A stretch of DNA of 57,212 bases from Bacteroidales bacterium (lineage in GTDB: Bacteria > Bacteroidota > Bacteroidia > Bacteroidales > UBA7960), in the NCBI GenBank assembly GCA_019429365.1, contig JAHYJD010000011.1, forward strand, positions 1 to 57,212. Reading direction: 5' to 3'. Shown here piece after piece: positions 8,824 to 33,126 of this stretch. The number at the start of each line of letters is the position of its first letter. Position 1 is the stretch's first letter. The notes under the pieces are model-generated. The model saw only the letters and a program-made list of their open reading frames with translations. It was not told where the DNA came from and searched no databases. The position numbers were made by a program, and so were the translations under genes.

Positions 8824-8836
8824 CGATTTTCCATAT

Positions 8837-10459: not shown

Positions 10460-10476
10460 ACCACTTTTTCACCCGT

Positions 10477-12353: not shown

Positions 12354-12414
12354 TGACCCTCCCCCAGCCCCTCCCTACTAGTAGGGAGGGGTGCCCGAAG
12401 GGCGGGGTGGGTCA
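12354..12414. repeat. GC-rich REP-like palindromic element
   Basis: This 61-bp stretch begins TGACCC and ends GGGTCA. It has a 24-bp perfect palindrome at its core (12368-12391, centre CTAG, arms CCCCTCCCTA). It stands out against AT-rich surroundings and sits between sucC and gcvT. Similar cccctccc/gggagggg units are scattered in intergenic DNA of many Bacteroidetes; copy number here cannot be judged from one window. Confidence 0.6.
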
Positions 12415-12463
12415 AAATAGACTTCTTTTCCCTTGAATCTTCCCCTCCTTCAAAGGTATTTAG

Positions 12464-12471
12464 TAATTTTG
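12464..12471 (+). promoter_or_regulatory. Candidate -7 element for gcvT
   Basis: Exact TAnnTTTG match (TAATTTTG) 46 nt before the gcvT ATG. No TTG is found at the expected spacing, so the assignment rests on the -7 box alone. Confidence 0.4.
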
Positions 12472-12516
12472 CGGGTATTGTCTCGAAACCTTTAATATTC
12501 CTATAAAATCATACGT

Positions 12517-13608: not shown

Positions 13609-13640
13609 GTAACTGAAGTTAGCCAATAAGGCACGAAGTA

Positions 13641-14399: not shown

Positions 14400-14403
14400 A
14401 AAA

Positions 14404-14435
14404 TTTGGCCGGGTTCAGGCAATTCCTTATTTTTA
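14404..14435 (+). promoter_or_regulatory. Weak candidate promoter for the phospholipase/nuclease-like gene
   Basis: TTTG at 14404-14407, a 20-nt spacer, then TATTTTTA at 14428-14435, one base from TAnnTTTG. It lies right after the comB stop. Confidence 0.35.
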
Positions 14436-14462
14436 AGGTTGGAAGTACCACACATGCACTGC

Positions 14463-15455: not shown

Positions 15456-15500
15456 ATAATCAGATGATTGTATTTTGAATAACTGGAAAAGCCGGCCGGC

Positions 15501-15938
15501 TTATTCCATATGCCTGATATTGTAGTGAAAAAGCAGGATAAAAAGTCCGGCAATCACTACAAAGGGCGAAAGGGTTTTGAAAAGCCACAGAAATGGCACT
15601 TTCAAAAAAACAAATGGAAGTATTAAGAAAAGCAGCATTGAAATGGAAAAAATCCAGAAACCAAGCCTTACCCTGTTCCAAATCTGGATCAGCCCGACAA
15701 AAGCCACCACCGAAAGCACAAAAGCGCTGATGGAATAGATCAATCCTCCCAAAGGCTCAAGGCTCTGGGGCAAAATGCCCGGACGCGTAAACTCCAGCAA
15801 ATCGTTCTGTATCCCGCCAAGGATAAGGAAAAACAGGGAGAAAATGAGCGTAAAACCCCCGAAAATAAAGGCCATTATGCAAAGAACCTTATATTGCAAC
15901 GGCCGCTCCTGGTATGATTGGATGTATTCTGAGGTCAT
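15501..15938 (-). CDS. Small membrane protein, four predicted transmembrane helices
   Basis: About 145 residues from ATG 15938 (MTSEYIQSYQERPLQYKVLC). Hydrophobic segments lie at about 20-43, 60-85, 90-113 and 117-138, so both ends are probably cytoplasmic. There are no recognisable catalytic or binding motifs, and I do not know the family. It lies between the convergent end of the secreted hydrolase gene and the hutH gene, with 80-95 bp of AT-rich DNA upstream. A longer start at 15950 would add only MCCI. Confidence 0.65.
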   Translation of the reverse strand: MTSEYIQSYQERPLQYKVLCIMAFIFGGFTLIFSLFFLILGGIQNDLLEFTRPGILPQSLEPLGGLIYSISAFVLSVVAFVGLIQIWNRVRLGFWIFSISMLLFLILPFVFLKVPFLWLFKTLSPFVVIAGLFILLFHYNIRHME

Positions 15939-16031
15939 GATACAACACAAGATTTGGTTGCATCAAATATACGCATTTATTGAATGCCACCAAAGATTAA
16001 ATCGCATTCATGAAAAAATAAATTATTACGA

Positions 16032-17534
16032 CTAAAGCAAGTAATGGGCCGGATTATTATGCCTTATAAATTGCAGGGCTTTGTCCATTTCCACATACAT
16101 TACTTTGTCGTCCTCCACAAAAGGCACCTCTTTGCGGAAATCGTCCAGGAGGCGTTTCAGGGCAGGCGATGTTTTGTCGCTTTCGCGGAAAGCCATGGCC
16201 TGGCTGGCGTTGAGCAACTCAATGGCAAGGAGTTTTTCGAGGTTCTCCAAAATTTTCATCGTTTTCACCGCCCCATTGGCTCCCATGCTCACATGGTCTT
16301 CCTGTCCCTGGCTCGACTCGATAGAGTCGACCGAGGCCGGTGTACAGAGCTGTTTGTTCTGGCTCACAATCGATGCCGCAGTGTATTGTGGAATCATCAA
16401 CCCGGAGTTGAGGCCGGGATGGGCCACCAGGAAGGCCGGTAAATTCCTTGCGCCAGAAATAAGTCGATACACCCTGCGTTCGGAGATATTGCCCAGTTCG
16501 GCCAGGGCAATGCCCAAAAAGTCGAGGGTGATGGCCAGGGGCTGCCCGTGGAAGTTGCCGGCCGAAATGATCAGGTCATCTTCTGGAAACAGCGTTGGAT
16601 TGTCGGTAACGGCATTGATCTCATTTTCGAATACACTGGCCACGTAATGGATGGCATCTTTCGAGGCGCCGTGCACCTGGGGTATGCAGCGGAAGGAATA
16701 CGGATCCTGCACGTGCTGTTTTTTGCGGCTGATGAGCTGGCTGCCCTTGAGTATCTGCCTGAAGTTTGCAGCGGTTTCAATTTGCCCCTTGTGATGACGC
16801 ACCTGGTGCACCTGGTCGAAGAAAGGCTCTATACGACCATCGAAGCCTTCGAGCGAAAGCGCTCCAACCAAATCGGCCCAGTGGCTGAGTTCGAACGCCC
16901 TGATAAGGCAAAAGCTGCCAATGGCAGCCATAAACTGGGTGCCGTTGAGCAGTGCCAGACCTTCTTTCGATGCCAGTTCGAGGGCTTGCCAGCCCTTCAG
17001 TTTCAGCGCATCAGAAGCCGGCATGCGCCTGCCCTGAAAATCGACCTCGCCCATGCCCAGCAAAGGCAGCGACAAGTGAGCAAGGGGCGAAAGGTCGCCT
17101 GAAGCACCCAGTGAGCCCTGGCAGTAAACCACGGGCAAAATGTCGTGGTTGTAGAAATTCACCAGGCGTTCTACGGTTTCAAGTCGAACACCCGAGTGGC
17201 CGTAAGAAAGCGACTGTATTTTCAATACCAGCATCAGCCTTACCAGGTCGGCGGGTAACTCCTCTCCCATTCCACAGGCGTGCGACATGACCAGGTTCTT
17301 CTGCAGGGTTCCGAGCTCCTCGGGCGAAATGCTGTGGTTGCATAGTGAGCCAAAGCCGGTAGTAACGCCATAAATGGGGTCTTGCTGGTTTTTTATCTTT
17401 TCATCGAGGTAGTTGCGGCAGGCTATAATCTTTTCTTTTGAAATGCCGGAAAGCGCAAGCTTTTTCTTTCCTGTCAGCAGGTCTTTTAACGTATCAAAAT
17501 CAATTCTCCCGGGGCTGATGTGATGAACTTCCAT
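16032..17534 (-). CDS. hutH: Histidine ammonia-lyase
   Basis: 500 residues, normal for HutH. It deaminates L-histidine to urocanate. The self-forming MIO electrophile arises from Ala144-Ser145-Gly146 in GSLGASGDLSPLAHL. Other family blocks are YGVTTGFG (about 55-62), LLNGTQFM, the NPTLF region with GNFHGQPLA, and the C-terminal SSQGQEDHVSMGANG. The rest of the hut pathway (hutU, hutI, hutG or ftcD) is not adjacent. It lies only 16 nt downstream of hisS on the same strand, so histidine charging and histidine breakdown appear co-transcribed. A tyrosine or phenylalanine ammonia-lyase is less likely given the typical HutH blocks. Confidence 0.93.
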   Translation of the reverse strand: MEVHHISPGRIDFDTLKDLLTGKKKLALSGISKEKIIACRNYLDEKIKNQQDPIYGVTTGFGSLCNHSISPEELGTLQKNLVMSHACGMGEELPADLVRLMLVLKIQSLSYGHSGVRLETVERLVNFYNHDILPVVYCQGSLGASGDLSPLAHLSLPLLGMGEVDFQGRRMPASDALKLKGWQALELASKEGLALLNGTQFMAAIGSFCLIRAFELSHWADLVGALSLEGFDGRIEPFFDQVHQVRHHKGQIETAANFRQILKGSQLISRKKQHVQDPYSFRCIPQVHGASKDAIHYVASVFENEINAVTDNPTLFPEDDLIISAGNFHGQPLAITLDFLGIALAELGNISERRVYRLISGARNLPAFLVAHPGLNSGLMIPQYTAASIVSQNKQLCTPASVDSIESSQGQEDHVSMGANGAVKTMKILENLEKLLAIELLNASQAMAFRESDKTSPALKRLLDDFRKEVPFVEDDKVMYVEMDKALQFIRHNNPAHYLL

Positions 17535-17550
17535 TAGTATAAATACATTA

Positions 17551-18924
17551 TTAAATATGAGTAGATACCTTTTTTATCAATTCTTCGGCCGGCAGTTGCA
17601 GCTGCTCGCCGGTTTTCATGTTCTTTAAAGAATACAAGCCCTGATTCATCTCGCTTTCGCCTGCCAGCACTACAAAAGGAATCTGGTTTTTATCGGCATA
17701 CTGCATTTGCTTCTTCATTTTTGCAGGCTCCGGGTACATTTCGCAGCTGACGCCTCTCATGCGCAATTTCTGAAGCAGAGCCAGACAGTAGTCCCGCTCA
17801 CGCTGCCCGAAGTTTACTGCCAGCACCTTAGTAAATGTGCCAAGCTCTTGCGGGAAGAGGCCCAGTTCTTTCATGACGTCGTAAATACGGTCGGCCCCAA
17901 AAGAGACACCCACACCCGAAACCCCCTGCAGGCCGAAAATGCCCGTCAGGTCGTCGTAGCGCCCACCGCCGCAAATACTGCCCATGGCGGCATCCAGGGC
18001 TTTCACCTCAATAATGGCGCCGGTGTAATAGTTGAGGCCGCGGGCCAGGGTCAGGTCGAGCTCTACCGCACAAGCCGTTGGCGCCAGGGCATTGATGGCA
18101 AACACTTCCCGGATTTCCTCAATGCCATTCATGCCCACTTCTGAAGAAGCCAGCAAGGACGAAAGCACCTGCAGTTTTTCTTCGTCGCTTCCGCTGAGCT
18201 GCAAAATGGGTTGCAACTTTCCAATGGCTTCTTGGCTAAGCCCCCTTTCCAGCAATTCCTCATTCACCTTTTCCAGGCCAATCTTTTCAATCTTGTCGAT
18301 GGCTATGGTAATATCAGTCAGCTTGTCTTCGAAGCCAATATATTGGGCAATTCCAGCCAGAATTTTTCGGTTGTTGAACTTAATAACCACCCTGATTCCC
18401 AGGCTGGAAAAGACCTCGTCGATGATCTGTAAAAACTCTGCTTCATTGAGCAGGGAGTCGCTTCCCACCACGTCCACATCGCACTGAAAAAATTCGCGGT
18501 AGCGTCCTTTCTGGGGGCGGTCGGCGCGCCAAACAGGCTGTATCTGGTAGCGTTTGAAGGGGAAGGTAATGTCGTTCTGATACTGCACCACATAGCGTGC
18601 AAAAGGCACGGTGAGGTCGTAGCGCAGGGCCTTTTCGCAAATCTGTGCCGAGAGTCTGCCCGGGTCGCGCTGCTGCCAATCGGCCTCGCTCACCTTCGAG
18701 GTAAAATCGCCAGAGTTAAGAATGCGAAATATCAGGCGGTCGCCCTCCTCCCCATATTTTCCCATAAGGGTCGACAACGACTCCATGGCAGGCGTTTCAA
18801 TGGGTTTATAACCATGTAGTTGAAAAATTTTTCTAACGGTAGTAAAGATCAGTTCCCTTCCGGCGATCTCCGCAGGAGAAAAGTCGCGGGTACCTTTGGG
18901 AATGCCTGGTTTTTGCAATGCCAT
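17551..18924 (-). CDS. hisS: Histidyl-tRNA synthetase
   Basis: About 457 residues from ATG 18924 ([19 protein letters not shown]). I prefer this to the ATG at 19017, which adds 31 residues not seen in HisRS, and because a -7 box lies just before it at 18952-18945. It is a class II synthetase: motif 1 region, motif 2 [20 protein letters not shown], the histidine-specific block [16 protein letters not shown], and motif 3 with [15 protein letters not shown]. The C-terminal anticodon-binding domain follows ([21 protein letters not shown] and KKQMQYADK). It charges tRNA-His. It heads a two-gene unit with hutH. Confidence 0.96.
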
Positions 18925-21399: not shown

Positions 21400-22485
21400 A
21401 TGGCACTAAACTGCGGAATGGTAGGGATAGCCGGGAGCGGCAAAACCACCCTGTTCAACTCATTATCGAAAGGTCGCATGGAAGACACCCAGGTTGCCGG
21501 CAAGGCCAACCTCGGACAGATAGAAGTGCCCGATCCGCGCCTGGATGCCATCGCGGCCATTGTGAAGCCTGTAAAGGTAGTTCGCACCACTGTGGAGATT
21601 ATCGACATTCCGGGTCTGACCAAAGGCGGGGCCACCCAGAAAGGTGCAGGGCAGTTCCTGGCCGAGATCAGGCAAACCGATGCCATTATACATGTGCTTC
21701 GCTGCTTCGACGACCCCATGGTGCCGCATATCGAAGGTTCGGTAAACCCGCTGCGCGACAAGGAAACCATAGACCTGGAGCTTATTTCCAAGGACCTGGA
21801 AACCCTTGAAAAAAAGATTCAACGGACAGATAAGCTTGCCCGCGTAGGTGATAAGGATGCGAAAAAAGCCTTGACGGTGCTTACTGCCCTTCAGGAGCAT
21901 TTCGAGAACGGTGAGCCCGCGCGCAGTTTCCAAATTGAAGAAACCGACAGGGAAATTCTTGACGATTGCTTTTTCCTGACCATAAAACCAGTGATTTACG
22001 TTTGTAACGTTGATGAAGCATCTGCCTCCGGGGGAAACAAATACACCGAAATGGTGGCATCTACCATTGAAAAGGAAGGTGCTGAAATGCTTACTATTGC
22101 CGCCAAGGCAGAAGCAGAGATAGCCCAGCTCGACGGCGAAGAAGACCGCATGGCATTTCTGGAAGACATGGGACTGCAGGAACCGGGTGTGAACAAGTTG
22201 ATCAGGGCGGCCTACCGCACCCTGAACCTGCACACCTTTTTTACCGAAGGGCCCAAAGAAGTCAGGGCCTGGACCATACATGCCGGCACCCCTGCACCCA
22301 AAGCAGCCGGCGTAATCCACTCCGACCTTGAAAGAGGGTTTATCCGGGCAGAAGTAAAACGCTGGGAAGACTTTGTGGAGCTTGGGTCAGAACATGCCTG
22401 CAAGCAAGCAGGGAAGTTCCACATTGAGGGAAAAACTTACATCGTAAAAGACGGCGACATCTTCCACGTGCGCTTTAACGTCTAA
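21400..22485 (+). CDS. YchF/Obg-type GTPase with divergent P-loop
   Basis: 361 residues, the YchF length. The G-domain has Walker A GIAGSGKTTLFNSLSKG (about 9-25), G3 DIPGLTKGG (about 69-77) and an NVDE signature in VIYVCNVDEAS (about 202-212), which in YchF gives ATP preference. The C-terminal TGS-like domain (about 275-361) has FTEGPKEVRAWTIHAGTPAPKAAGVIHSD and ends VRFNV. The P-loop reads AGSGKTT instead of the usual PNVGKST, and the usual FPFCTIxPN segment is replaced by QVAGKANLGQIEVPD. It may be a second, specialised YchF paralogue (the DUF933 group) rather than the ribosome-linked canonical protein. It ends 55 bp before the IS. Confidence 0.85.
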   Translation: MALNCGMVGIAGSGKTTLFNSLSKGRMEDTQVAGKANLGQIEVPDPRLDAIAAIVKPVKVVRTTVEIIDIPGLTKGGATQKGAGQFLAEIRQTDAIIHVLRCFDDPMVPHIEGSVNPLRDKETIDLELISKDLETLEKKIQRTDKLARVGDKDAKKALTVLTALQEHFENGEPARSFQIEETDREILDDCFFLTIKPVIYVCNVDEASASGGNKYTEMVASTIEKEGAEMLTIAAKAEAEIAQLDGEEDRMAFLEDMGLQEPGVNKLIRAAYRTLNLHTFFTEGPKEVRAWTIHAGTPAPKAAGVIHSDLERGFIRAEVKRWEDFVELGSEHACKQAGKFHIEGKTYIVKDGDIFHVRFNV

Positions 22486-22540
22486 AGAAATTGATGAATA
22501 ATGATTGCGGATTTATGATTTTATAATTATTATCATTAAT

Positions 22541-23917
22541 GTCCGATAAAAAATAAGAATTGGTTTTTTCGTTTTGTAACCCATTGAATATAAGGTTGTT
22601 TTGATTTTGACTTCATGAATCATCGATGCCAAGCCCCCCAAACAGGTCTAACTGACCGGAGTAAATTTTACTTTTTCTCCAGTCTCGGTCGGGATTTTCA
22701 AGAAAGCTTAGCAACAAGATATAGTTGAACAAATGTATTTTACAAAAGCTAACCAAGTTTGAAAAGGCCCATTTTCTTTTGAGCATTTTCTGTATTACCG
22801 TCATTAATAAGTTAGCTATCAATGCACAGTATATCTGAATCTTTATAGCGTTCTCATTGTCACCTAAAAAATATTTTAAGGGAAAATTCTGCTTTAACTG
22901 CTTAAAAAGCAATTCAATCTGCCATCTAAGCTTGTAAATGGCTGCAACCAAATCTGCCCTCATATCGAACAAATTGGTAAGAAATTCAAATTCACGCTTT
23001 AGCACTCTATCGTAGAAAGTTATTTTTCTAAGGCTTAGTTTGGGTTTATGGCCATCCTTAACAAATACTTCAATGGTAATATCTTCTAAAACCCCACTAT
23101 GGATATTCTGCTCAATAAAGTGTTGCTCGGTAACATTGTAAACGGCATTATCCTTTATTCGGGTAACAAAACCAACCTCAGCATTGGTGAAAGCCTCAAA
23201 GGCTTTGTAGTCATTATACCCTTTATCAAACACATAAATTGTATCCGCCTTATGCTTAAGCTTGTTCAATAAAACATGGTCATGGGTGGCTGCATCCGTA
23301 AACCAGACCATTTTAGGGACTGTTTCGTCCACATTGATAACTGAATGTACTTTTATCCCCCCTTTACGTTTGCCCGAAGAAGGATTACGGCCAACACACT
23401 TGAGAATATCCTGAAACAAGCTTATTGTTGTGCTATCGAATATTTCTATTTGCTTGTTTATTACATCTTTAATCCGGGTGTCCGATAAAAAATGGCCATA
23501 CTTTTTCAAAAGCTTGTTATAAACCAGGCAGAATACATTTGCATCGCGTCTTTTATTGGCATCAGACAAGGTGCTCCTGTAAGGAATGTGCTCCAGTTTA
23601 AAGTGCATGGTTTTACCTGCCAGACCAAGCATGGCTCCAGACACCTCCCGCAATGATGTGCATTTGGCAAAAGAGCAAAACAACATACTAATCAAGTGAT
23701 CCCTGGTTTTAAACCGTTTAATGTAATAATCTGAACCCTGCTTTTTGGCTGAATCTGTAATGATATTATCATCAATAAGAGAAACTAGCTGTCCGAAAAC
23801 CGACTGTCCAAAGAAATGTGTAGATTTGCTCATCGTAGCTTTTTTTGTTTAGCGACTCAAATCTACGAAAAGGAAGGGGAGGTTTAATCACCCCCCTTCC
23901 CAATTTTTTTATCGGAC
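22541..23917 (-). mobile_element. IS4-family insertion sequence, complete, about 1.38 kb
   Basis: Terminal inverted repeats of 13 bp (GTCCGATAAAAAA) lie at 22541-22553 and, inverted, 23905-23917. One transposase gene fills the inside on the minus strand. The only direct repeat at the ends is AAT (22538-22540 and 23918-23920), too short to be sure of a target duplication. The element lies between the YchF gene and the start of the accessory operon and ends 24 bp before the next gene's ATG, so it has replaced or displaced that gene's native promoter. Both ends and the ORF look intact, so it may still be mobile. Confidence 0.85.
22613..23833 (-). CDS. IS4-family DDE transposase
   Basis: 406 residues, uninterrupted. 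The N-terminal half has the DUF4372-like region (DHLISMLFCSFAKCTSLREV), followed by PYRSTLSDANKRRD, typical of IS4 elements of Bacteroidetes. Catalytic residues: first Asp in EIFDSTTISLF (about 131), second Asp in YVFDKGYNDY (about 205), and Glu in the YREK signature YKLRWQIELLFKQLK (about 315-329). It cuts and rejoins DNA at the element ends. No frameshift is seen, and the ATG at 23833 is 72 nt inside the right inverted repeat. Confidence 0.93.
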   Translation of the reverse strand: MSKSTHFFGQSVFGQLVSLIDDNIITDSAKKQGSDYYIKRFKTRDHLISMLFCSFAKCTSLREVSGAMLGLAGKTMHFKLEHIPYRSTLSDANKRRDANVFCLVYNKLLKKYGHFLSDTRIKDVINKQIEIFDSTTISLFQDILKCVGRNPSSGKRKGGIKVHSVINVDETVPKMVWFTDAATHDHVLLNKLKHKADTIYVFDKGYNDYKAFEAFTNAEVGFVTRIKDNAVYNVTEQHFIEQNIHSGVLEDITIEVFVKDGHKPKLSLRKITFYDRVLKREFEFLTNLFDMRADLVAAIYKLRWQIELLFKQLKQNFPLKYFLGDNENAIKIQIYCALIANLLMTVIQKMLKRKWAFSNLVSFCKIHLFNYILLLSFLENPDRDWRKSKIYSGQLDLFGGLGIDDS

Positions 23918-23941
23918 AATAGTGAATTAAAATGAAAAAAA

Positions 23942-26191
23942 ATGAAAAAATTACTTGTTAATTCATTCGTAATTGCTGTTTTATCAGCGTTTTTATTTAC
24001 CGCATCGGCACAGGAGAAAACATTGAAAAGCCTGTCGCTCGAAGATTTGTACAAAAACAATGTCTTCCGGCAAAAAGGAATTAATGCAATCCGATGGATG
24101 AAGGACAACAAAGGGTATTCAGTTTTGGAAGAAAACGAAACTGTTGGGGGAAAAGATATTGTGGTGTACGATGTGGAATCGGGCCAAAGGGAAGTGCTGG
24201 TTTCGGCCCAACGGTTGATACCTGCCGGTGAAAAGAATCCGTTGAATATTTACAATTACTCCTGGTCGGATGATAACAGCAAATTACTGATTTTTACCAA
24301 TACCCGTAAAGTTTGGCGGCTTCATACCCGCGGCGATTACTGGGTTTTGGATATGAATACCGGGAAGCTGGTTCAGCTTGGTCCGGAGATGGAAGAAGCG
24401 CGTCTGATGTTTGCTAAATTTTCGCCCGACAGGAAAATGGCAGGATTTGTTTATAAAAACAACATTTATGTGCAAAACCTTGAGGATGGGAAGGTTGAAC
24501 AACTCACCCACGACGGAAACGACCATATCATAAACGGGACATTCGACTGGGCTTACGAAGAGGAATTTCATTGCCGCGACGGATTCCGGTGGAGCCCCGA
24601 CAGCAAAAAAATTGCTTTCTGGCAGATGGATACAAAAGGCACCGGTGTTTTTTATCTGATTAATAACATTGATTCCATTTATCCCAAAATCATCCCGTTA
24701 CCTTATCCGAAAGTGGGAACTGATAATTCTTCTGCAAAAATTGGTTCGATTAATCTTGAAGATAAAAAAATAACCTGGATGAATATTCCGGGTGATTCAC
24801 GAAACAATTATCTCCCACGGATGGAATGGGCCAACTCTTCAGGCGAATTAATTATTCAGCAACTGAATCGGCAACAAAACACGAACAATGTTTTTCTTGC
24901 AAATGTCAATTCCGGTAACGCAAAACAAATATTTACAGAAGAAAGTGAAACTTGGCTCGATACCAATGACGCTTTGATGTGGATTGAAAAAGGTTCAAAA
25001 TTTACCTGGATGAGCGATATCTCGGGGTGGATGCATTTAAACAAAGTTTCGCCCGCTGATGGAACAATGAGCCCGATAACCTCAGGTAATTTTGAAATTA
25101 TCAATTTGCTGAAGATAGACAAGGAAAAAGGCTGGGTGTATTACATTGCCTCACCCGACAATGCAACCCAGCGCTATTTGTTCAGGAGCAGGCTCGATGG
25201 AAAGGGAAAACCTGAAAGATTGTCGCCTGCTAACCAAACCGGGCAGCATTCCTACAACATTTCGCCCAACTGTAAATATGCAATTCACACTTTTTCAAAC
25301 CATAAAACTCCCCCGGTTTACGAGGTGGTTTCATTATCCGAACACAAGATAATCAGGGTTTTGGAAGATAATTCAGACCTGAAGAACAAACTGGCTGAGT
25401 ATGCAATTGCTCAAAAAGAATTTTTCAGAATAAATACCGATGACGGTCTGGAGTTTGATGCCTGGATGATAAAACCTCTGAATTTCAATCCCGAAAAGAA
25501 ATACCCGGTTATTTTTTATGTGTATGGCGAGCCTGCAGGGGCTACGGTTCAGGACAGTTGGTCGTCAAATTTATGGGACCAGTTGCTTGCACAGGAAGGA
25601 TACATCGTAATCAGCGTTGATAACCGGGGAACAAAAACACCTCGGGGGCGGGATTGGAGGAAAATTGTGTATGAAAAAATTGGAATTATTGCTCCCATTG
25701 ACCAGGCAGCTTGTGCAAAGAAAATAATGGAATGGGATTTTATTGATGCCGACAGAATAGGGATTTGGGGTTGGAGCGGAGGCGGTTCAAATACATTAAA
25801 TTCAATGTTCCGCTATCCCGAAATTTATAAAACGGGTATTGCCATTGCATTTGTTAGCAATCAATTATTGTACGATAATATTTATCAGGAGCGGTATATG
25901 AATTTGCCCGAAAACAACATGGAAGGATATCGGGATGGCAGCCCTATAACCCATGCAAAAAACCTGGAAGGAAATTTAATGCTAATCTATGGCTCTGGCG
26001 ATGACAATTGCCATTACCAAAATTGTCAGGTGTTAGCAGATGAGTTGATAAAACATAACAAGTATTTCACAATGATAGACTATCCAATGCGTTCTCACAG
26101 TATCAATGAAAGAGAAAATACTACAATGCATTTGCGGATGACCATGCTCAATTACTGGAAACAAAATTTGCCGGCAGTAATGAATAAATAA
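23942..26191 (+). CDS. Secreted S9-family prolyl peptidase, DPP IV type
   Basis: 749 residues. The signal peptide is MKKLLVNSFVIAVLSAFLFTASAQ, so it acts in the periplasm or outside. Residues about 50-490 form the DPPIV N-terminal beta-propeller, including WAYEEEFHCRDGFRWSPDSK, the Glu-Glu motif that binds the substrate amino end. About 510-745 is the alpha/beta-hydrolase domain: nucleophile Ser in GIWGWSGGGSN, Asp in YGSGDDNCHYQN, His in YPMRSHSI. It removes X-Pro (or X-Ala) dipeptides from peptide N-termini. Its start is 24 bp past the IS end, so it may be read from a promoter in or at the IS. The next gene follows by 16 nt. Together with the Xaa-Pro aminopeptidase at 31056 it points to breakdown of proline-rich peptides. 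Confidence 0.92.
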   Translation: MKKLLVNSFVIAVLSAFLFTASAQEKTLKSLSLEDLYKNNVFRQKGINAIRWMKDNKGYSVLEENETVGGKDIVVYDVESGQREVLVSAQRLIPAGEKNPLNIYNYSWSDDNSKLLIFTNTRKVWRLHTRGDYWVLDMNTGKLVQLGPEMEEARLMFAKFSPDRKMAGFVYKNNIYVQNLEDGKVEQLTHDGNDHIINGTFDWAYEEEFHCRDGFRWSPDSKKIAFWQMDTKGTGVFYLINNIDSIYPKIIPLPYPKVGTDNSSAKIGSINLEDKKITWMNIPGDSRNNYLPRMEWANSSGELIIQQLNRQQNTNNVFLANVNSGNAKQIFTEESETWLDTNDALMWIEKGSKFTWMSDISGWMHLNKVSPADGTMSPITSGNFEIINLLKIDKEKGWVYYIASPDNATQRYLFRSRLDGKGKPERLSPANQTGQHSYNISPNCKYAIHTFSNHKTPPVYEVVSLSEHKIIRVLEDNSDLKNKLAEYAIAQKEFFRINTDDGLEFDAWMIKPLNFNPEKKYPVIFYVYGEPAGATVQDSWSSNLWDQLLAQEGYIVISVDNRGTKTPRGRDWRKIVYEKIGIIAPIDQAACAKKIMEWDFIDADRIGIWGWSGGGSNTLNSMFRYPEIYKTGIAIAFVSNQLLYDNIYQERYMNLPENNMEGYRDGSPITHAKNLEGNLMLIYGSGDDNCHYQNCQVLADELIKHNKYFTMIDYPMRSHSINERENTTMHLRMTMLNYWKQNLPAVMNK

Positions 26192-26207
26192 TTATAAATA
26201 CTTTTTT

Positions 26208-27218
26208 ATGAGTACCGAAAGAATGACCCGGCAGCCGATGCGGATTATAAAGGCAAATGAAATAAAAAAATATTATTCCATGCAAATGGCAATTGATGCC
26301 ATGCACAGGGCATTTTCCTTATTATCATCGAAAGATAGTTTTGTTCCTGTTCGTTTTGTTACAAAACTTCCTTCAGGGAAATTATTGATGTTATTTAAAC
26401 CGGCCTATGTTGAGAACGATAATCGTATATCTGTTAAAATTTTAACGCAACGCGAAAAGAGCTGTATTTTGGGAATTCCTGTGATTCAGGGCTTAGTTAT
26501 GGTAGTTGATTCTGTAACAGGCGAAATATTGTCTATAATGGATGGAGAATACATAACAGCACTTCGCACCGGAGCAGCAAGTGGATTGGCAACCCGCTTT
26601 TTTGCCCGCCAGGATTCCGAAGTTCTGGCACTGTTTGGTTGCGGGGCGCAGGGAATAACCCAACTGGAAGCGGTGCTCTGCGAAAGGGAAATTAAAAAGG
26701 TATTTGTTTTCGACAAAAACAAGAACCGCGCAAACCGGCTGATTGAAGAAATGCAGGAAAAAACAAAAGCTGAACTGGTTTTTAGCAGAGATACTTCTGT
26801 TCTTTCCGATGCCGATATTATTTGTACGGCAACCAATTCAACAAATCCATTGTTTCGCAGGGAGGAGGTAAAAAATGGAGTGCACATTAATGCCATTGGG
26901 TCTTTTCAACCGCACATGAAGGAACTCGACCCATTTTTGTTCAGGGAAGCGAAAATTTATTTTGACCAGAGAGAATCCTGTCTCAGGGAAAGTGGAGATT
27001 TTATTAAGCCACTGTCTGATGGTTTATTAACAGAAAAACAAATAATTGGTGAAATTGGTGATTACTGTCTGAATAAAATTCCGGGAAGGGAATCGGAAGA
27101 TGAAATTACAATTTTCAAGAGCGTTGGCGTTGCCATTCAGGATTATGCTGTGGCGACTGATATTTACAACTTTGCTTTGAATGAAGGATTTGGCGTGGAG
27201 TTGAACCTTTTTGATTAA
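26208..27218 (+). CDS. Ornithine cyclodeaminase/mu-crystallin family protein
   Basis: 336 residues. The family's NAD(P)-dependent members make proline from ornithine, reduce cyclic imines (1-pyrroline-2-carboxylate), or act as alanine dehydrogenase. Seen here: KILTQRE with the conserved Lys that contacts the substrate (about 76-82), ALRTGAASGLATRFFAR (about 118-134), the Rossmann motif LFGCGAQGITQLE (about 143-155), INAIGSFQPHMKELD and the closing SVGVAIQDYAVA. Exact activity cannot be told from sequence. In this setting (X-Pro peptidase, serine ammonia-lyase) a role in proline or imino-acid metabolism is plausible but inferred. Starts at 26208 or 26238 are both possible. It is 16 nt after the peptidase gene. 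Confidence 0.85.
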   Translation: MSTERMTRQPMRIIKANEIKKYYSMQMAIDAMHRAFSLLSSKDSFVPVRFVTKLPSGKLLMLFKPAYVENDNRISVKILTQREKSCILGIPVIQGLVMVVDSVTGEILSIMDGEYITALRTGAASGLATRFFARQDSEVLALFGCGAQGITQLEAVLCEREIKKVFVFDKNKNRANRLIEEMQEKTKAELVFSRDTSVLSDADIICTATNSTNPLFRREEVKNGVHINAIGSFQPHMKELDPFLFREAKIYFDQRESCLRESGDFIKPLSDGLLTEKQIIGEIGDYCLNKIPGRESEDEITIFKSVGVAIQDYAVATDIYNFALNEGFGVELNLFD

Positions 27219-27324
27219 ATGAGAGTTCCAGATTTATTACAAGGTGAAAAGAATTATTTCCGGCTTAAATTTCAATCCGGAAATTCATAGATTAAACAGA
27301 TTGTAAACCTGTAAATTATCAATT

Positions 27325-28782
27325 ATGAAAAGAAAAAGAAACCTGGTTTTTTACGCATTACTTATGGCAAGTTTGCTGCTTGCAAATATCGGTTATGGAA
27401 AAGTAAAGTTGCCCGCAATTGTATCGTCCAATATGGTATTGCAGCGTGATGCAACAGTCAACATATGGGGCTGGGCAGATAGCGGCGAAGAAATTGATAT
27501 TTCGGTTTCATGGTTAGAAGAGTCAATTAAAATTTCTGCGGGAAAGAGTGAAACCTGGAAAATTCAGGTCAAAACCACAAACAGTCTGGAACCTCAAACT
27601 ATTAGGATAAAAAGCCGGGAATCGGACATATTTTTGGAGAATATTTTATTTGGGGAAGTATGGTTGTGTTCAGGTCAATCCAATATGGAACAACCACTTA
27701 GTGGATACATGGGCCAACCTGTATTGGGAGCACAACAGGTTATAGCAACCGCAAATAATGAAAACATACGGTTATTTACTGTCGAACGGCAGGCCAGCAT
27801 TACCCCCAAAGAAGATTTGGAAAAATATTTGGGTTGGCAATCTGCCAGTCATGCGACGGTGAAAGAATTTAGTGCAATTGCCTGGTTCTTCGGAGAACAA
27901 TTGCAAAATATTCTGGATGTGCCGGTGGGATTGATTCATACCTCATGGGGCGGGAGTCTGATCGAAGCCTGGATGAGTGAAGAGGTTTTAAGCCAAATCC
28001 AGAATATCGATTTAACTGAAGTTGACCTTAATCGCGGAAATCGTTTTCCGACCGTTCTTTTCAATGGTATGATAAATCCGCTGATTCCCTACACCATCAA
28101 AGGGGCTCTTTGGTACCAGGGGGAATCGAACGTAGGCAATCCGGAACTGTATAAAATACTTTTTCCTGCGATGGTAAAAGATTGGAGAATGCGCTGGGAA
28201 ATTGGTGACTTTCCTTTTTATTATGTTCAGATTGCTCCTTTCAAATATGGTGGAAATAACCGGTTTGATGCCGAAAATAACGCTGCATTTATGCGCGAGG
28301 CACAAATGCATTGTCTCGATTCAATACCGAATTCGGGCATAGCAATCACTCTTGATGCGGGCGAGGAAAATATTATCCATCCGGCTGAAAAGAAAATTGT
28401 TGCCGACAGACTTCTTTACAATGCTTTGAATCAGACTTATGGATACAATTCCGTGGATTTTTCAGGGCCGGTTTATGATTCTTTACAGATTCAGGATGAA
28501 GGAATCTATCTGATGTTCAGCCAGGCTGAAAAGGGATTGTATGCTCCTGTAAAACTTGGTGGATTTGACATCGCCGGCGAAGATAAAGTATTTTTTCCAG
28601 CTGAAGCTTCAATAGTTCAGGGCAGAAAAGTGTTTGTTAAAAGTGAACAGGTAAAAAATCCTGTCGCCGTGCGTTATGGTTGGCGCAGCTGGACTGTGGG
28701 GACACTTTATGATACCAACCTTTTACCCGCCTCATCTTTTAGAACCGATAATTGGGTTGATGCTGTTGAATCGAACAAATAA
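27325..28782 (+). CDS. Secreted SGNH esterase, sialate O-acetylesterase family
   Basis: 485 residues with signal peptide (about 1-25, ending NIGYG). It resembles the sialate O-acetylesterase family of Bacteroidetes: an N-terminal beta domain with LPAIVSSNMVLQRD, then the SGNH hydrolase with catalytic Ser in CSGQSNMEQPL, Gly/Asn in WYQGESNVG (about 266-274), and the His of NIIHPAEK (about 352-359). The residue usually Asp in D-x-H-P is here Asn/Ile context (ENIIHP), a mild departure. It removes acyl groups, often acetyl, from sugars or related molecules outside the cell. It comes after a 106-bp gap that holds an 8-bp inverted repeat (27256-27263/27277-27284), and it precedes the serine ammonia-lyase by 9 nt. 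Confidence 0.85.
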   Translation: MKRKRNLVFYALLMASLLLANIGYGKVKLPAIVSSNMVLQRDATVNIWGWADSGEEIDISVSWLEESIKISAGKSETWKIQVKTTNSLEPQTIRIKSRESDIFLENILFGEVWLCSGQSNMEQPLSGYMGQPVLGAQQVIATANNENIRLFTVERQASITPKEDLEKYLGWQSASHATVKEFSAIAWFFGEQLQNILDVPVGLIHTSWGGSLIEAWMSEEVLSQIQNIDLTEVDLNRGNRFPTVLFNGMINPLIPYTIKGALWYQGESNVGNPELYKILFPAMVKDWRMRWEIGDFPFYYVQIAPFKYGGNNRFDAENNAAFMREAQMHCLDSIPNSGIAITLDAGEENIIHPAEKKIVADRLLYNALNQTYGYNSVDFSGPVYDSLQIQDEGIYLMFSQAEKGLYAPVKLGGFDIAGEDKVFFPAEASIVQGRKVFVKSEQVKNPVAVRYGWRSWTVGTLYDTNLLPASSFRTDNWVDAVESNK

Positions 28783-28791
28783 AACAAAAGA

Positions 28792-30396
28792 ATGAAAAAA
28801 TTACCTGGAATTTTTAATGATGTAATCGGACCTGTGATGCGTGGTCCTTCCAGTTCGCATACGGCAGCTTCGTGGCGGATTGGAAGACTTGGGCTTGATA
28901 TTTTAAATGAACCGTTAAAGAAAGCGCTGATTGAATTCGACCGTGATGGCGCGTGGGCTCCAAATTACAGGGAGCAGGGAACTACGCTGGGTATAGAAGG
29001 TGGGCTTTTGGGGCTTGAAATTACTGATGAAAGGATGAAATATACTGAAAGCTATGCGCGTGAAAAAGGAATTACATTTGAATACCAGATTAGCTCATTT
29101 CAAACCAGTCATGCTAATACTGTTCGACTCACGCTTTGGGGGATTTCGGATAAAAGTGCTCAGATTATTGCCGTTTCTTTGGGAGGTGGTTCATTTGAGA
29201 TTCGAGCCATCAACGAATTTCCCGTGCAGTTGAGTGGAGATTTGTATGGAATAATGGTATTCAATAAAAACAAGCTGGATTTAACAGACGAACTTAAGGC
29301 GGCAATTTCTTCCGAAATTGAGTTTTCATCAGAGCAAAAAGGGGATGTCTTTAAATACGAATTAAAATCTTCCTATCCGTTTACTCCTGAACTGGTCACA
29401 CAGTTGCAGCATCATCCGCTGATTGATGAAATTGCATTCATTCATCCAATTATGCCAATTATTTCAGGCAGACAAAAAGAGATGCCATTTACTACAGTGC
29501 AATCCTTAATCGATTATGCGAAGAAAAATGAGTCGGATTTAGGGGATTTGGGCATGATTTACGAAAAATGTATCAGCGGAATTTCTGAGGAAGAGTTGAT
29601 TGATAAAATGAAGGAGATAATCCATATCATTCATAAAAGCAGTGAAACAGGATTAAAGGGAACGCATTATGCCGATCGGATTTTACAGCAACAGTCGCAT
29701 CTGATTGGAAATGCAGAAAGGGCAGGTAAAATTAAAAATTCCGTTGTTAACCAGATAATTGCAAATGTTTCGGCGTTAATGGAATCAAAAAGCGCAATGG
29801 AAGTGGTTGTTGCCGTTCCCACTGCGGGCTCCTGCGGAACTGTTGGAGGCTCATTGCTGGCCTTTTCCGAATTTATTGGTTCAACTGAAGATGAATTGAT
29901 TAAAGCTTATTTTGCAGCAGGAATTGTTGGTGCTTATTTTGCCCAGGGGCCCGGATTTTCGGCCGAAGAACACGGCTGCCAGGTAGAGTGCGGTGCTTCA
30001 GCCGGAATGGCTGCAGCTGCCATGGTACAATTAATGGGAGGTTCCGCAGAACAAGCGCTCGGGGCAGCTTCAATGGCCATTCAGAATATGATTGGACTTA
30101 TTTGCGATCCGGTAGCTGACCGCGTGGAAGTTCCGTGTTTGGGAAAAAATATCAGCGCCGCGGTTAATGCCTATGCTTCTGCTACAATGGCAGTTGCAGG
30201 CTATAATCCTGTCATTCCGCTAAATCAGGTTATTCAAACCGTTTCACGAGTGAGTAAAACAATGCCAAATTGCAATAAATGTACGGGTAAAGGAGGCCTG
30301 GCCATAACGGAAACTGCACTGAACTTAAAAAACATGCTGAAAGAAATGGCGGATGTAACGGATTTGCAAAATGTTCAATTATTAAAGGACGAATAA
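28792..30396 (+). CDS. Single-chain Fe-S L-serine ammonia-lyase-like enzyme
   Basis: 534 residues, longer than the common 450-residue single-chain SdaA. Residues 10-35 show the beta-domain signature GPVMRGPSSSHTAASWRIGRL. About 140-235 is probably an ACT-like region, and about 235-515 is the alpha domain: PTAGSCGTVGG (Cys348), GCQVECGASAGMAAAAMVQLMGG (Cys396, Cys400) and ICDPVADRVEVPCLGKN (Cys438, Cys449). This looks like a fusion of the two-subunit type SdaAB-SdaAA. An extra CxxC near the end (MPNCNKCTGKGG, Cys494/497) is unusual to me. Members deaminate L-serine to pyruvate with a [4Fe-4S] cluster; a related substrate is possible. Last gene of the operon, 9 nt after the esterase. Confidence 0.82.
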   Translation: MKKLPGIFNDVIGPVMRGPSSSHTAASWRIGRLGLDILNEPLKKALIEFDRDGAWAPNYREQGTTLGIEGGLLGLEITDERMKYTESYAREKGITFEYQISSFQTSHANTVRLTLWGISDKSAQIIAVSLGGGSFEIRAINEFPVQLSGDLYGIMVFNKNKLDLTDELKAAISSEIEFSSEQKGDVFKYELKSSYPFTPELVTQLQHHPLIDEIAFIHPIMPIISGRQKEMPFTTVQSLIDYAKKNESDLGDLGMIYEKCISGISEEELIDKMKEIIHIIHKSSETGLKGTHYADRILQQQSHLIGNAERAGKIKNSVVNQIIANVSALMESKSAMEVVVAVPTAGSCGTVGGSLLAFSEFIGSTEDELIKAYFAAGIVGAYFAQGPGFSAEEHGCQVECGASAGMAAAAMVQLMGGSAEQALGAASMAIQNMIGLICDPVADRVEVPCLGKNISAAVNAYASATMAVAGYNPVIPLNQVIQTVSRVSKTMPNCNKCTGKGGLAITETALNLKNMLKEMADVTDLQNVQLLKDE

Positions 30397-30814
30397 AAAC
30401 AATAAAAGTTTGTGCTAAATTTTTTTCGGTAAGTCATTGGAGAGACTTTCATGATTCGTTTAAACTGCTGGTTAAAATAAGAAATGCTATTGTATCCGCA
30501 TTCCATTTCAATATTTCCAAAGTTACTCTCGCTGCCTGCAATTAATTTTGCCGCGTATTCATTCAATGCGCATTTCGTTGAGAAATATCGTGAAGGTTTT
30601 GCCGGTTCGTTGTTTGAAGTACCTGCAAAATTTATTGGGAGTCATGTTAACAATCGATGCGATTTGAGATATATCTATCTCCTTCCGGAAATTTATTGAA
30701 AGAAACTGAAAAAAACACATTAATACGCTCGTTTTCAGATTCTTTCGACGGAGATGCATGGCGTACAGAAGGCAAGGTTTTCAATGAGTCGGATTTGGCA
30801 CATAAAAAAAGTAC
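30375..30814 (-). pseudogene. AraC-family regulator remnant, C-terminal two thirds, frameshifted
   Basis: Read in three frames, this stretch spells an AraC/XylS DNA-binding domain. First comes a region around TLPSVRHASPSKESENERIN (about 30780-30720), then FRKEIDISQIASIVNMTPNKFCRYFKQRTGKTF (first helix-turn-helix), then YAAKLIAGSESNFGNIEMECGYNSISYFNQQFKRI (second) and SPMTYRKKF. The frame breaks at a seven-base poly-A/T run (30709-30715, one base too many) and at a 4-bp tandem duplication attc-attc (30557-30564). Its 3' end overlaps the end of the ammonia-lyase gene. The N-terminal sensing domain is missing and replaced by an unrelated fragment (next entry). It cannot make a working regulator. 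Confidence 0.8.
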
Positions 30815-30951
30815 ATTAAAACTTTCAATCTTTTGCTTTATCAGACATAGATAATTTTCCAGGTTTTTCAGCAATCCTTCAAACTGGCCCCAGTAAGTAT
30901 CGAGGCCTATTCCAAACAGTCCGGCTTTTATTATAACAATCTATTTTTCAT
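30815..30951 (-). pseudogene. N-terminal fragment of an L-arabinose/L-fucose isomerase-family gene
   Basis: From an ATG at 30951 (MKN) and, after a one-base frame break near 30941, the minus strand reads IVIIKAGLFGIGLDTYWGQF followed by EGLLKNLENY. This matches, from memory, the N-terminus of arabinose isomerase-like proteins of Bacteroidetes. About 40 codons remain before the sequence changes, near 30814, into the AraC remnant in the same frame. This suggests a deletion joined the start of one gene to the inside of another. No functional product is expected. Confidence 0.65.
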
Positions 30952-31055
30952 CTTAATTCTGTTGCTCGGTATGTTTTGATTGAAAAAGTTAAAATGGTTC
31001 GAAATTCCGTAATCTATCAGAAATTAGTCCGATGCTCGGGGAATTTTCTGAATTA

Positions 31056-32456
31056 CTAACCAAACTCCAGTCGAATAGCCTCAATTTCTTCAATCGTCAT
31101 GGGTTTCTGTTTGCCCAATAATTTTGCACCTGATTCAGTCATCAAATAATCTTCTTCGTTTCTTATGCCTCCAAAATCGCGGTATTCATTCACTTTCTCC
31201 CAAATAATAAAATCGTTGAATTTGTTCTGTGAGCGCCACAGATCCATCAATTCAGGAATAAAATAGATACCCGGTTCAATGGTGAAGACATGTCCCGTCT
31301 GCAATCTCTTGGCCAATCGCAGCGATTTTAATCCGAATTGCATACTTTTAGGTTGACCATCGTAACCAACCCAAACTTCACCGAGGTCTTCCATATCATG
31401 CACATCCAGTCCCATCATATGACCGGTACCACAAGGGAAAAAAAGCGCGTGGGCGCCAACTTCAATGGCATCATTGGTATTCCCTTTAGTAAAACCCATG
31501 GTTTTTAATCCATCGAAGATGGTTTTACAGGCTGCCAGGTGGGCATTCCGGAAAGGGATTCCCACACCTAATGAATAAACTGCGGCACGGTGCGCATCAA
31601 GTGTCAACTGATAAATCTCTTTTTGTTCCACCGTAAATTTTTTTGCTATAGGAATGGTGCTTGACAAATCGCCAGCATACATCATTTCATTTTCAAAACC
31701 GGCATCAATTAAAAAAAGATCTCCTTCTTTAATCGTATTTCCATGATAATGATTATGAAGTGTCTGACCATTTATGGTTGCAATTATCGGAAATGAAATA
31801 TTTCCGCCGGCAGCCAGCGCAATCCTGTGAATTTCGGCTGCAACCTGAACTTCGGTCATTCCCGGCTTTGCAAATTTCATTGCCGCAACGTGCATATCCA
31901 CTGAAATATCAACAGCTTGGGTCAGTTGCCGGATTTCTTCATCCGTTTTGACTTCACGCTGACTTACAACAGCCTTTACCAAATCAACAGAATATTTCAT
32001 TTTTACTTCCGCCGGTCTTATTCCGATTAAATCTTGCAGTTTTATTTTGTTTTCAGGCCTGTAAAGTGGCAAAAAATGAATGTGCTGTTTTTGAGCCACG
32101 GCATCTCCAATCACTTTCTCAAGGTCCGCAGTTTTCATGGCAGTTTTAACGCCACATTGTTCAGCTCTTTCAAAGATTTTTGGTTTTGGCCCCATAAAAA
32201 CGATATCGTCGATGGTAAAATCATCCCCAAAAATTATCTCTTTATCGTTATCAATATCAATAATCGCTATTAATCCTGGGTGCTGAATACCAAAGTAATA
32301 GAGGAATGTGCTGTCTTGTCTGAAATGATAGGTGTTATCGGTGTAATTCATTGGCGATTCATCGTTGCCTAAGAATAAAATCAGTCCTTTCCCCAATTTT
32401 TCTTTTAAAACTTTTCTTCTGTTTACATAAGTACTTTTTGAAAACATAGTATTCAT
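31056..32456 (-). CDS. Xaa-Pro aminopeptidase (M24B)
   Basis: 466 residues, cytoplasmic (no signal peptide). The N-terminal creatinase-like domain spans about 1-170, the C-terminal pita-bread domain about 175-450. The dinuclear metal ligands are visible: Asp in LIDAGFENEMMYAGDLSSTIPI (two Asp), His in GTGHMMGLDVHDME, Glu in FTIEPGIYFIP and Glu in GGIRNEEDYLMT. It removes N-terminal residues that precede proline, so it would finish what the exported DPP IV-type enzyme starts. It is on the opposite strand to that operon, behind a region of gene remnants, with its own AT-rich upstream region. Starts at 32456 or three codons later are possible. Prolidase (PepQ) is an alternative name. Confidence 0.9.
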   Translation of the reverse strand: MNTMFSKSTYVNRRKVLKEKLGKGLILFLGNDESPMNYTDNTYHFRQDSTFLYYFGIQHPGLIAIIDIDNDKEIIFGDDFTIDDIVFMGPKPKIFERAEQCGVKTAMKTADLEKVIGDAVAQKQHIHFLPLYRPENKIKLQDLIGIRPAEVKMKYSVDLVKAVVSQREVKTDEEIRQLTQAVDISVDMHVAAMKFAKPGMTEVQVAAEIHRIALAAGGNISFPIIATINGQTLHNHYHGNTIKEGDLFLIDAGFENEMMYAGDLSSTIPIAKKFTVEQKEIYQLTLDAHRAAVYSLGVGIPFRNAHLAACKTIFDGLKTMGFTKGNTNDAIEVGAHALFFPCGTGHMMGLDVHDMEDLGEVWVGYDGQPKSMQFGLKSLRLAKRLQTGHVFTIEPGIYFIPELMDLWRSQNKFNDFIIWEKVNEYRDFGGIRNEEDYLMTESGAKLLGKQKPMTIEEIEAIRLEFG

Positions 32457-32532
32457 AATTTAATGATTTATTGTTATTTATCTCTTTTTCAAATTATTAC
32501 ACAAAGCCATTTTGTCAATGAAAACAAACTTT

Positions 32533-32569
32533 GACTTCGCTCAGGGTGACTGTCAGACTGAGCGAAGTC
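32533..32569. repeat. Inverted repeat of the TTCGCTCAG/CTGAGCGAA type
   Basis: Arms 32533-32544 (GACTTCGCTCAG) and 32558-32569 (CTGAGCGAAGTC) are exact complements with a 13-nt loop. Such TTCGCTCAG hairpins are frequent extragenic repeats in Bacteroidetes (from general knowledge). It lies in the gap upstream of the aminopeptidase gene. Confidence 0.6.
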
Positions 32570-32608
32570 GAAGGGTATTTATTTTTCATTTAAGCTGAAG
32601 ACACTAAA

Positions 32609-32713
32609 TCACTGCATATCAATCTTCAAAGTTACAACTTCACCGGCTTTCAGTGAAATCATTTTTTCATTGTTTTTTTGTATGTTTTCGGTCAACACAT
32701 AATTATTATTCAT
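32609..32713 (-). pseudogene. Short ORF, likely 3' remnant of a lost gene
   Basis: An ATG at 32713 opens a 34-codon frame ending TGA at 32611-32609. The product ends KMISLKAGEVVTLKIDMQ. The S-L-K-x-x-E-V-x-T-L-K pattern is the sort of closing strand seen at the C-termini of glycoside hydrolases and similar multi-domain enzymes, so this may be the tail of a deleted gene. It could equally be chance. Confidence 0.35.
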
Positions 32714-32742
32714 AAATCCTAAATCATGAATAAGAAAGTGGT

Positions 32743-33126
32743 TTATGCTTCGAAAAAGTCCTGTAAAGCATCGAGGTAAAATTCTTTCCAGCCCTGGAGC
32801 ATATTTTCGTAGGCTTCGTCGGGAATGCCATCGTGCACCACATGCAGCTGTGTGCCGCCCTTTTCTTCATATAACTTTATGGTGACAACGGACTCTTCCT
32901 CCTCCCCTTCAAAAAACCATTGCTGCTTCAACCGTTTGTTGGTTTCGAATTCAATGTTGCGTCCGGTAATTTCGCCATTGAGCAGACTGAACTCTGAGTC
33001 AGGTTCCAGGCTCATTACGGCAGGTTCGCCGCTCCAAAGCTCGATGGTAAAAGGGTTGGTAAGTGCACGGTAAACCTCTTCGGGCGTGCCTTTAATCTTG
33101 CGGTACAGTTTTATGCTTTTCGACAT
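32743..33126 (-). CDS. AHSA1/SRPBCC-domain protein
   Basis: 127 residues, one START/Bet v1-like domain of the AHSA1 group (activator of Hsp90 homologue 1 family, used widely for small ligand-binding proteins). Typical features are the opening IKLYRKIKGTPEEVYRALTNP (family pattern i.i.ap.e.Vw.alt.p), the central WSGEPAVMSLEPDSEFSL, TIKLYEEKGGTQLHVVHDGIP and the C-terminal long helix GWKEFYLDALQDFF. The ligand is unknown. It ends the transcript of glgB: its ATG at 33126 lies 2 nt from the glgB stop at 33129. Confidence 0.85.
   Translation of the reverse strand: MSKSIKLYRKIKGTPEEVYRALTNPFTIELWSGEPAVMSLEPDSEFSLLNGEITGRNIEFETNKRLKQQWFFEGEEEESVVTIKLYEEKGGTQLHVVHDGIPDEAYENMLQGWKEFYLDALQDFFEA

Follow-up and report, generated by a model that had tools for sequence, protein, structure and literature searches.

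The stretch of DNA considered here (the window) is the 57,212-nucleotide contig JAHYJD010000011.1 from the draft assembly of a Bacteroidales bacterium, hereafter the host. It carries an inserted block, or island, which contains an IS4-type insertion sequence (IS), genes for a dipeptidyl peptidase IV (DPP IV)-type enzyme, an ornithine cyclodeaminase (OCD) family protein, an acetylesterase and an iron-sulphur (Fe-S) lyase, the remnant of an AraC-type regulator gene, and a prolidase or aminopeptidase P gene on the opposite strand. In what follows, G-numbers are genomes and L-numbers loci of the comparison set, with G000 for the host draft assembly. The features of the island are as follows.

22486..32742, no strand: the inserted block, between YchF and AHSA1/GlgB, recognised by an empty site in G241 and a shift in G+C content.
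22540..23918, minus strand: IS4-type insertion sequence with inverted ends TGTCCGATAAAAAA, the ends read directly, the transposase by profile match.
22613..23833, minus strand: IS4-family transposase (NF033592, 191 bits, cut-off 115).
23942..26191, plus strand: DPP IV-type serine peptidase of family S9B (PF00930, DPPIV_N, and PF00326, Peptidase_S9), with a signal peptide by eye.
26208..27218, plus strand: OCD/mu-crystallin family imine reductase, predicted pyrroline-2-carboxylate reductase (PF02423, OCD_Mu_crystall; 6t3e; tree).
27325..28782, plus strand: SASA-type (sialate O-acetylesterase-like) carbohydrate esterase (PF03629; 9h4u, 9ega), with a signal peptide by eye.
28792..30396, plus strand: single-chain [4Fe-4S] lyase of the L-serine dehydratase family with Gln62, Glu392 and Cys497, predicted 3-hydroxyproline dehydratase (PF03313; 4rqo; residue table).
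30420..30711 (approximate), minus strand: AraC-type regulator remnant with a broken frame (tblastn match to AraC-type genes at L055 and L058).
31056..32456, minus strand: M24B peptidase of prolidase or aminopeptidase P type (PF05195, AMP_N, and PF00557, Peptidase_M24), without a signal peptide by eye.

Profile matches bear out the five genes that an earlier note on this DNA had named, at their coordinates and in their broad families, and the spacings it gave for the four plus-strand genes (16, 106 and 9 nucleotides) are exact. It had also placed gene remnants and an Xaa-Pro aminopeptidase behind these four. A remnant and the M24B gene are indeed there; however, the latter lies on the opposite strand, outside the operon, and is therefore not part of the plus-strand transcript here. 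The remnant was compared with two loci only, and is 47–49% identical over 49 amino acids to the AraC-type genes of the OCD loci L055 (G131) and L058 (G022), with E-values of 4e-17 and 9e-16.

The block is inserted into the chromosome. In G241, a genome of the same family as the host, YchF is followed after 7 nucleotides by AHSA1 on the other strand, then by GlgB and a FeoB-like gene (locus L214). The same four genes flank the island in the window, where positions 22486–32742 separate YchF from AHSA1. The G+C content is 37.3% in the IS, 41.0% from the IS end to the lyase end and 37.3% from there to AHSA1, against 48.0% and 48.5% in the two flanks. That the flanks are common to the window and G241 speaks for an insertion into the host chromosome and against a mis-binned contig. 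G032, another member of this family, likewise has GlgB next to YchF, in a different arrangement. The claim of an accessory block beside an IS thus holds, as does the distance of 24 bp to the first gene, whose ATG lies 24 positions beyond the IS end at 23918.

The Fe-S lyase matches SDH_alpha (PF03313) and the Legionella L-serine dehydratase 4rqo, and scores under both curated NCBIfam cut-offs (142.7 of 345.1 bits for TIGR00720 and 192.7 of 243.2 bits for TIGR00718). In L-serine dehydratase, His61 probably serves as the base, and activity is lost when it is changed to Ala; in CyuA, an L-cysteine desulfidase, a Cys/Glu pair replaces the His base (PMC12647591). I mapped His61 through the host canonical enzyme aligned with 4rqo, as chain residue 79 minus 18, an offset deduced from the chain length.

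A residue table of 61 rows was compiled, with 53 rows of the subfamily and 8 canonical ones, among the latter the two-chain enzyme L122 (G298). Bacteroidota contribute 21 of the 53 rows (L092 being incomplete) and Synergistota loci 30; the other two are the fragment L121 and the Thermovirga locus L003. One gene appears twice, as L003 and L153, and near-identical copies occur among the Synergistota rows, so that the 53 rows stand for at most 52 genes and for a smaller number of independent cases; 59 of the 61 rows are distinct. The His61 position is Gln in 52 of the 53 subfamily rows (Gln62 in the window; L121 is truncated there) and His in all 8 canonical rows. Position 392 is Glu in 53/53, against Ala or Ser in 8/8, and position 497 is Cys in 51/53 (one Asn, one truncated), against Glu or Asp in 8/8. 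The three [4Fe-4S] cluster cysteines (C396, C438 and C449 in the window) are kept in all 61 rows. The residue pattern therefore places the lyase in a distinct subfamily, cleanly split from the canonical rows. A structure prediction from three sequences (window, L002, L003) reached a mean pLDDT of 56.9, too poor for placing Gln62, Glu392 and Cys497.

Two rows of the table deserve a comment. L089 (2437–8151, G131) holds the only complete lyase in which Asn stands at the Cys497 position; it adjoins an S9 peptidase, and by eye a methionine gamma-lyase-like gene and a regulator of Rrf2-like type lie in its vicinity. L121 is a fragment on an odd contig (G429, contig C57), whose other reading frames look by eye like those of a very G+C-rich organism; the contig is possibly mis-binned, and it was omitted from the neighbourhood counts.

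The second enzyme of interest is the OCD-family protein. Its closest solved relative is the pyrroline-2-carboxylate reductase 6t3e (206.6 bits), from an organism that I take to be Thermococcus litoralis, followed by alanine dehydrogenase (156.8 bits), mu-crystallin (139.9 bits), the iminosuccinate reductase 6rqa (103 bits) and ornithine cyclodeaminase (64.9 bits). Against PRK08618, an OCD-family model with no stated activity, it reaches 321 of 417 bits. The catalytic Asp is presumably D228 in ornithine cyclodeaminase and D219 in archaeal alanine dehydrogenase; in the alignment with an alanine dehydrogenase structure, the Asp column is Phe in the window protein.

The neighbours of its relatives are informative. 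The ten best OCD matches of the phylum sample besides the window all adjoin a gene of the proline racemase family, and the second motif of those genes is Cys/Thr in all nine that were read (L066 being the unread tenth). Cys/Thr denotes trans-3-hydroxyproline dehydratase, and Cys/Cys racemase and epimerase (PMC4364671). In a tree of 56 OCD proteins, the six-row clade of the window (support 100/99) is sister to these ten racemase-adjoining proteins, with moderate support of 87/81, below the star of the tool. A further clade, OCD2 (9 rows, 100/100), mixes partners of both dehydratase types: its genes adjoin Cys/Thr genes in G125, G131, G228 and G014, and the lyase in G136, G022, G233 and G032. 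On the tree, the lyase-partner label must have been gained or lost five times or more along starred branches. The OCD genes have thus switched partner several times between the lyase and the racemase-family dehydratase, and this repeated switching is the strongest reason to propose one common product for both dehydratase types.

Within the order, the genes of another, separate OCD group stand beside RidA-like or tryptophanase-like genes by eye (L037 and L040, beside the OCD at 1492 and 1489, L035 and L047), which suggests another imine-handling role.

Both peptidases act, as far as can be predicted, on X-Pro bonds. The DPP protein is closest to the DPP IV structures 5olj and 7y4f, and its alignment with 5olj retains Glu-Glu (yeeef), Gly-Trp-Ser-x-Gly-Gly (gwsggg), Asp (sgddn) and His (shsi), as in DPP IV. 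The M24B protein has AMP_N and M24 domains above the Pfam cut-offs, and matches best Xaa-Pro dipeptidase structures (175.6 bits), then aminopeptidase P 5wze (132.5 bits); with the curated prolidase and aminopeptidase P models it scores 147.8 and 147.4 bits, both under cut-off. DPP relatives of 55–81% identity adjoin the lyase, or lie two genes from it, in G222, G125, G488 and G428, and adjoin OCD in G022 and G136. In G136, a 56% homologue of the window prolidase directly adjoins a Cys/Thr racemase-family gene.

DPP, OCD, lyase and prolidase form a core that recurs jointly in other genomes more often than by chance. One case is a contig of Lentimicrobium sp. KA12 (L002, in G222), where a sulfatase fragment (by eye), DPP (81%), OCD (74%), a remnant, the lyase (83%) and a prolidase-type gene (76%) follow on one strand, with no esterase. 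The lyase is found in 11 of the 295 genomes of the order, at 12 loci, and an OCD-family gene lies within two genes of it at seven of these (window, G222, G172, G136, G022, G233 and G032); at two more (G014-C193 and G125) it adjoins a prolidase- or DPP-type gene of 55%. Conversely, all six genomes of the order with an OCD of at least 45% identity also carry the lyase, a co-occurrence with a hypergeometric probability of 5e-10, or 1e-8 without the host genome, relatedness being ignored in both. In a set of 24 OCD loci (L004–L027), three have a racemase-family gene (L010, L024 and L027), and no locus of the set matched the lyase, DPP or prolidase. Of the 395 genomes sampled across the phylum, 12 including the host have a lyase-type match; the 11 further ones comprise one canonical two-chain enzyme, one fragment and nine others, and DPP (57%) and prolidase (53%) stand beside the lyase in G488, while DPP (74%) is two genes off in G428.

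These loci support the association of X-Pro peptidases with an imino-acid enzyme that the earlier note had proposed. The note would have been refuted had its four plus-strand genes never occurred together elsewhere; DPP, OCD and lyase do so, with prolidase as the fourth (L002). The SASA esterase is matched in none of 28 related Bacteroidota loci, L002 included. The esterase is therefore outside the recurring core, and its suggested role, to remove an acyl group first, is left without support.

The lyase subfamily extends to the Synergistota, where relatives of the Thermovirga lyase are found at an E-value of 1e-60 in 46 of 120 genomes. I inspected all 36 places of at least 44% identity, including L003, with at most 19 kb of sequence at each, several of the contigs being short. 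Nine of the 36 have a gene homologous to that of trans-4-hydroxyproline dehydratase (HypD) near the lyase, and two more have aconitase X beside it. Three of the HypD genes were scored, at 1139, 1206 and 1327 bits for a curated cut-off of 1100, and for the Thermovirga activase the nearest match is the HypD activase (412 bits, cut-off 425). Ten of the 36 regions were partly preselected: four (L222–L225) because OCD- or racemase-family genes lie next to the lyase, three because of TRAP or GntR genes. HypD occurs in four of the 25 regions that make up the rest, and L231, L232 and L253 may have inherited a single arrangement from a common ancestor. The lyase is thus in hydroxyproline neighbourhoods in part of its range, not everywhere.

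The two aconitase X clusters (L226, G772, 551–9892; L227, G709, 9036–18261) contain an OCD-family gene, a TRAP transporter, the large and swivel subunits of aconitase X and a Gln62-type lyase. Both also encode a second SDH_alpha protein of ∼431 amino acids that scores only 26 bits with TIGR00718, and L226 has an additional RidA-family gene (PF01042).

I propose that the island is a cassette for the use of proline- and hydroxyproline-rich peptides, in which the lyase would dehydrate 3-hydroxyproline and the OCD-family enzyme would make proline. I put the probability of this reading, whose substrate, order of steps, locations and role I infer from the genes, at about 0.55. The DPP IV-type enzyme, outside the cytoplasmic membrane, would remove X-Pro and probably X-hydroxyproline dipeptides from peptides, and the cytosolic M24B prolidase-type enzyme would split these into proline and hydroxyproline. 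The lyase would then take water off 3-hydroxyproline, by abstraction of the alpha-proton and cluster-assisted loss of the beta-hydroxyl as is thought for L-serine dehydratase, but with the role of the His base taken by different residues. The resulting enamine would tautomerise to pyrroline-2-carboxylate, which the OCD-family enzyme would reduce to L-proline. Such a dehydration-reduction route is described for trans-3-hydroxyproline (PMC4364671). The trans-3-hydroxy-L-proline isomer is the most likely substrate and my first choice, because trans-3-hydroxyproline is made in mammalian proteins while the cis-3 form is known from one antibiotic (PMC5144071). By extension, the whole 'L-serine ammonia-lyase' subfamily of Bacteroidota and Synergistota may be a [4Fe-4S] hydroxyproline dehydratase, a further independent family with a relocated base (Glu392 and Cys497 being the candidates); I consider the chances of this as even.

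A number of observations weigh against this proposal. The loss of the His marks the lyase as not an ordinary enzyme of its family, which does not in itself mean hydroxyproline. The OCD protein falls under every curated reductase cut-off (243 of 322 bits for PRK06141, 136 of 266 for PRK07340). Three of the 12 lyase loci of the order lack both OCD and peptidase partners (G131-C172, where only a distant S9 peptidase adjoins, G228 and G014-C223), as do seven of the nine Bacteroidota loci outside the order, around which there is neither OCD nor any DPP or prolidase of at least 50% (in one of them, G358, an S9 peptidase of 29% lies about 5 kb from the lyase). In the Synergistota, 25 of the 36 loci have neither HypD nor aconitase X in the region covered, and OCD directly adjoins the lyase in four of 30 short loci. 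The free hydroxyprolines used by such bacteria are held to stem from peptide antibiotics, not collagen (PMC5144071). Lastly, PF05544, the proline racemase family that includes the Cys/Thr dehydratase, has no match in the host draft genome, but some PF05544 gene is present in 18 of the 21 lyase genomes; the three without it (G000, G222 and G022) are all draft assemblies, and in L222 the lyase stands beside a Cys/Thr gene, so simple replacement is not the whole explanation. Strict replacement of the racemase-family dehydratase by the lyase was accordingly dropped.

Because L222, G172 and others have both the lyase and a Cys/Thr gene, another hydroxyproline isomer or 3,4-dihydroxyproline is possible. 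More generally, the lyase could act on some other amino acid with a hydroxyl or another substituent at the beta position, for instance 3,4-dihydroxyproline, beta-hydroxyaspartate, allo-threonine or a D-isomer, the OCD-family enzyme reducing the resulting imine. BhcB and BhcD work in this manner in the beta-hydroxyaspartate cycle. This would account for lyases that coexist with Cys/Thr genes (L222, G172 and G136) or with aconitase X (L226 and L227). However, the OCD protein is nearer to pyrroline-2-carboxylate reductase than to iminosuccinate reductase, by the scores given above, and the X-Pro peptidases point to a proline ring; I therefore regard a substrate of this wider kind as unlikely, though it is the best of the alternatives.

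Somewhat less likely again is that the lyase is a true L-serine ammonia-lyase, as the earlier note had it, in a cassette that degrades serine- and proline-containing peptides, with the OCD-family enzyme keeping the redox balance by converting an imine to alanine or proline. The shared superfamily, the GPSSSH motif of the window protein and the three retained cluster cysteines agree with this, and the lyase is the sole SDH_alpha match in seven lyase genomes (G222, G172, G131, G032, G022, G228 and G125). The serine activity is nevertheless doubtful: the likely catalytic His is replaced by Gln, both curated cut-offs are missed, and the OCD relatives sit with hydroxyproline dehydratases. Moreover, the host has a separate canonical L-serine dehydratase on contig C218 (TIGR00720, 432.5 bits against 345.1), and a canonical single-chain enzyme is also found elsewhere in five further lyase genomes, the cut-off having been applied to that of the host only.

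That the core genes are passengers of a glycan-utilisation locus with no joint role, the esterase, sulfatases and glycosidases being the real theme, is improbable: the SASA esterase of the window and the sulfatases and/or GH95-, GH78- and GH106-like genes seen by eye near OCD or DPP in G131, G022, G136 and L002 would fit, but the glycan genes vary by locus, with the SASA match in none of the 28, and the core recurs in varied arrangements, also where no glycan-degradation gene is recognised by eye (G488, G125 and G172). The glycan-related genes in question, sulfatase- and GH95/GH78/GH106-like, lie at L055 1672–18213 (G131), L058 6062–12358 (G022) and L056 3958–5742 (G136), all by eye; in two of these three loci a uroporphyrinogen-decarboxylase-like gene was also seen near OCD.

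For the hydroxyproline cassette proposed here, the nearest precedent is found in Bacilli, where OCD, peptidases and TRAP or ABC transporters surround trans-3-hydroxyproline dehydratases (eLife 2014, PMC4113996). The cassette would thus be a variant of an established type of pathway, in which one enzyme family is predicted to be new. It shares with the Bacilli pathway (t3HypD and an OCD-family reductase) the OCD-family reductase, the nearby peptidases and the predicted chemistry and product, but has a [4Fe-4S] serine-dehydratase-family enzyme in place of the racemase-family one, of which no gene was found in the host draft genome. The aconitase X system would share the iron-dependent dehydration of 3-hydroxyproline to pyrroline-2-carboxylate within a hydroxyproline gene cluster, here predicted, but aconitase X belongs to another protein family, the aconitase superfamily, and is above cut-off in one of the 21 lyase genomes and not in the host. 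LhpJ, which I take to have dehydratase activity, would be another 3-hydroxyproline-breaking family; it belongs to the enolase superfamily, and an epimerase activity is reported for it.

At the level of the individual enzymes, the lyase shares with the Fe-S L-serine dehydratase SdaA (Legionella 4rqo) and with CyuA (PMC12647591) the protein family and the three cluster cysteines, and differs in Gln for His61, in the new Glu392 and Cys497, and in its gene partners. The OCD-family enzyme differs from its closest solved relative 6t3e in organism and gene neighbours, and its reductase activity is a prediction. In the open-access literature (titles and starts of abstracts, among the matches listed), I found no report of this combination, of a serine-dehydratase-type hydroxyproline dehydratase, or of OCD together with a serine dehydratase; the impression of the earlier note that this is not a described system is upheld within that scope. 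If the proposal is correct, a coherent group of enzymes carries a common but mistaken annotation, the breakdown of 3-hydroxyproline gains a further and presumably oxygen-sensitive enzyme family, and a single cassette joins the use of proline- and hydroxyproline-rich peptide material to proline.

The IS at one edge of the island has inverted ends TGTCCGATAAAAAA at 22540 and 23918 that look intact, and it is present in one copy in the host assembly. No direct repeat was seen at its ends in the flanks 22520–22539 and 23919–23938. Counts of sigma-70-like sites (38, against 29.0 with a standard deviation of 6.7 in shuffles) and of TANNTTTG, which I take to be a Bacteroidota -7 motif (53 against 47.7), are near those of the shuffles and so carry no information on the transcription of the block. 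Terminator-like hairpins, of which none is listed between the lyase end (30396) and the AraC remnant, are commoner in positions 22480–32800 than in shuffles (17 against 8.9, standard deviation 2.9).

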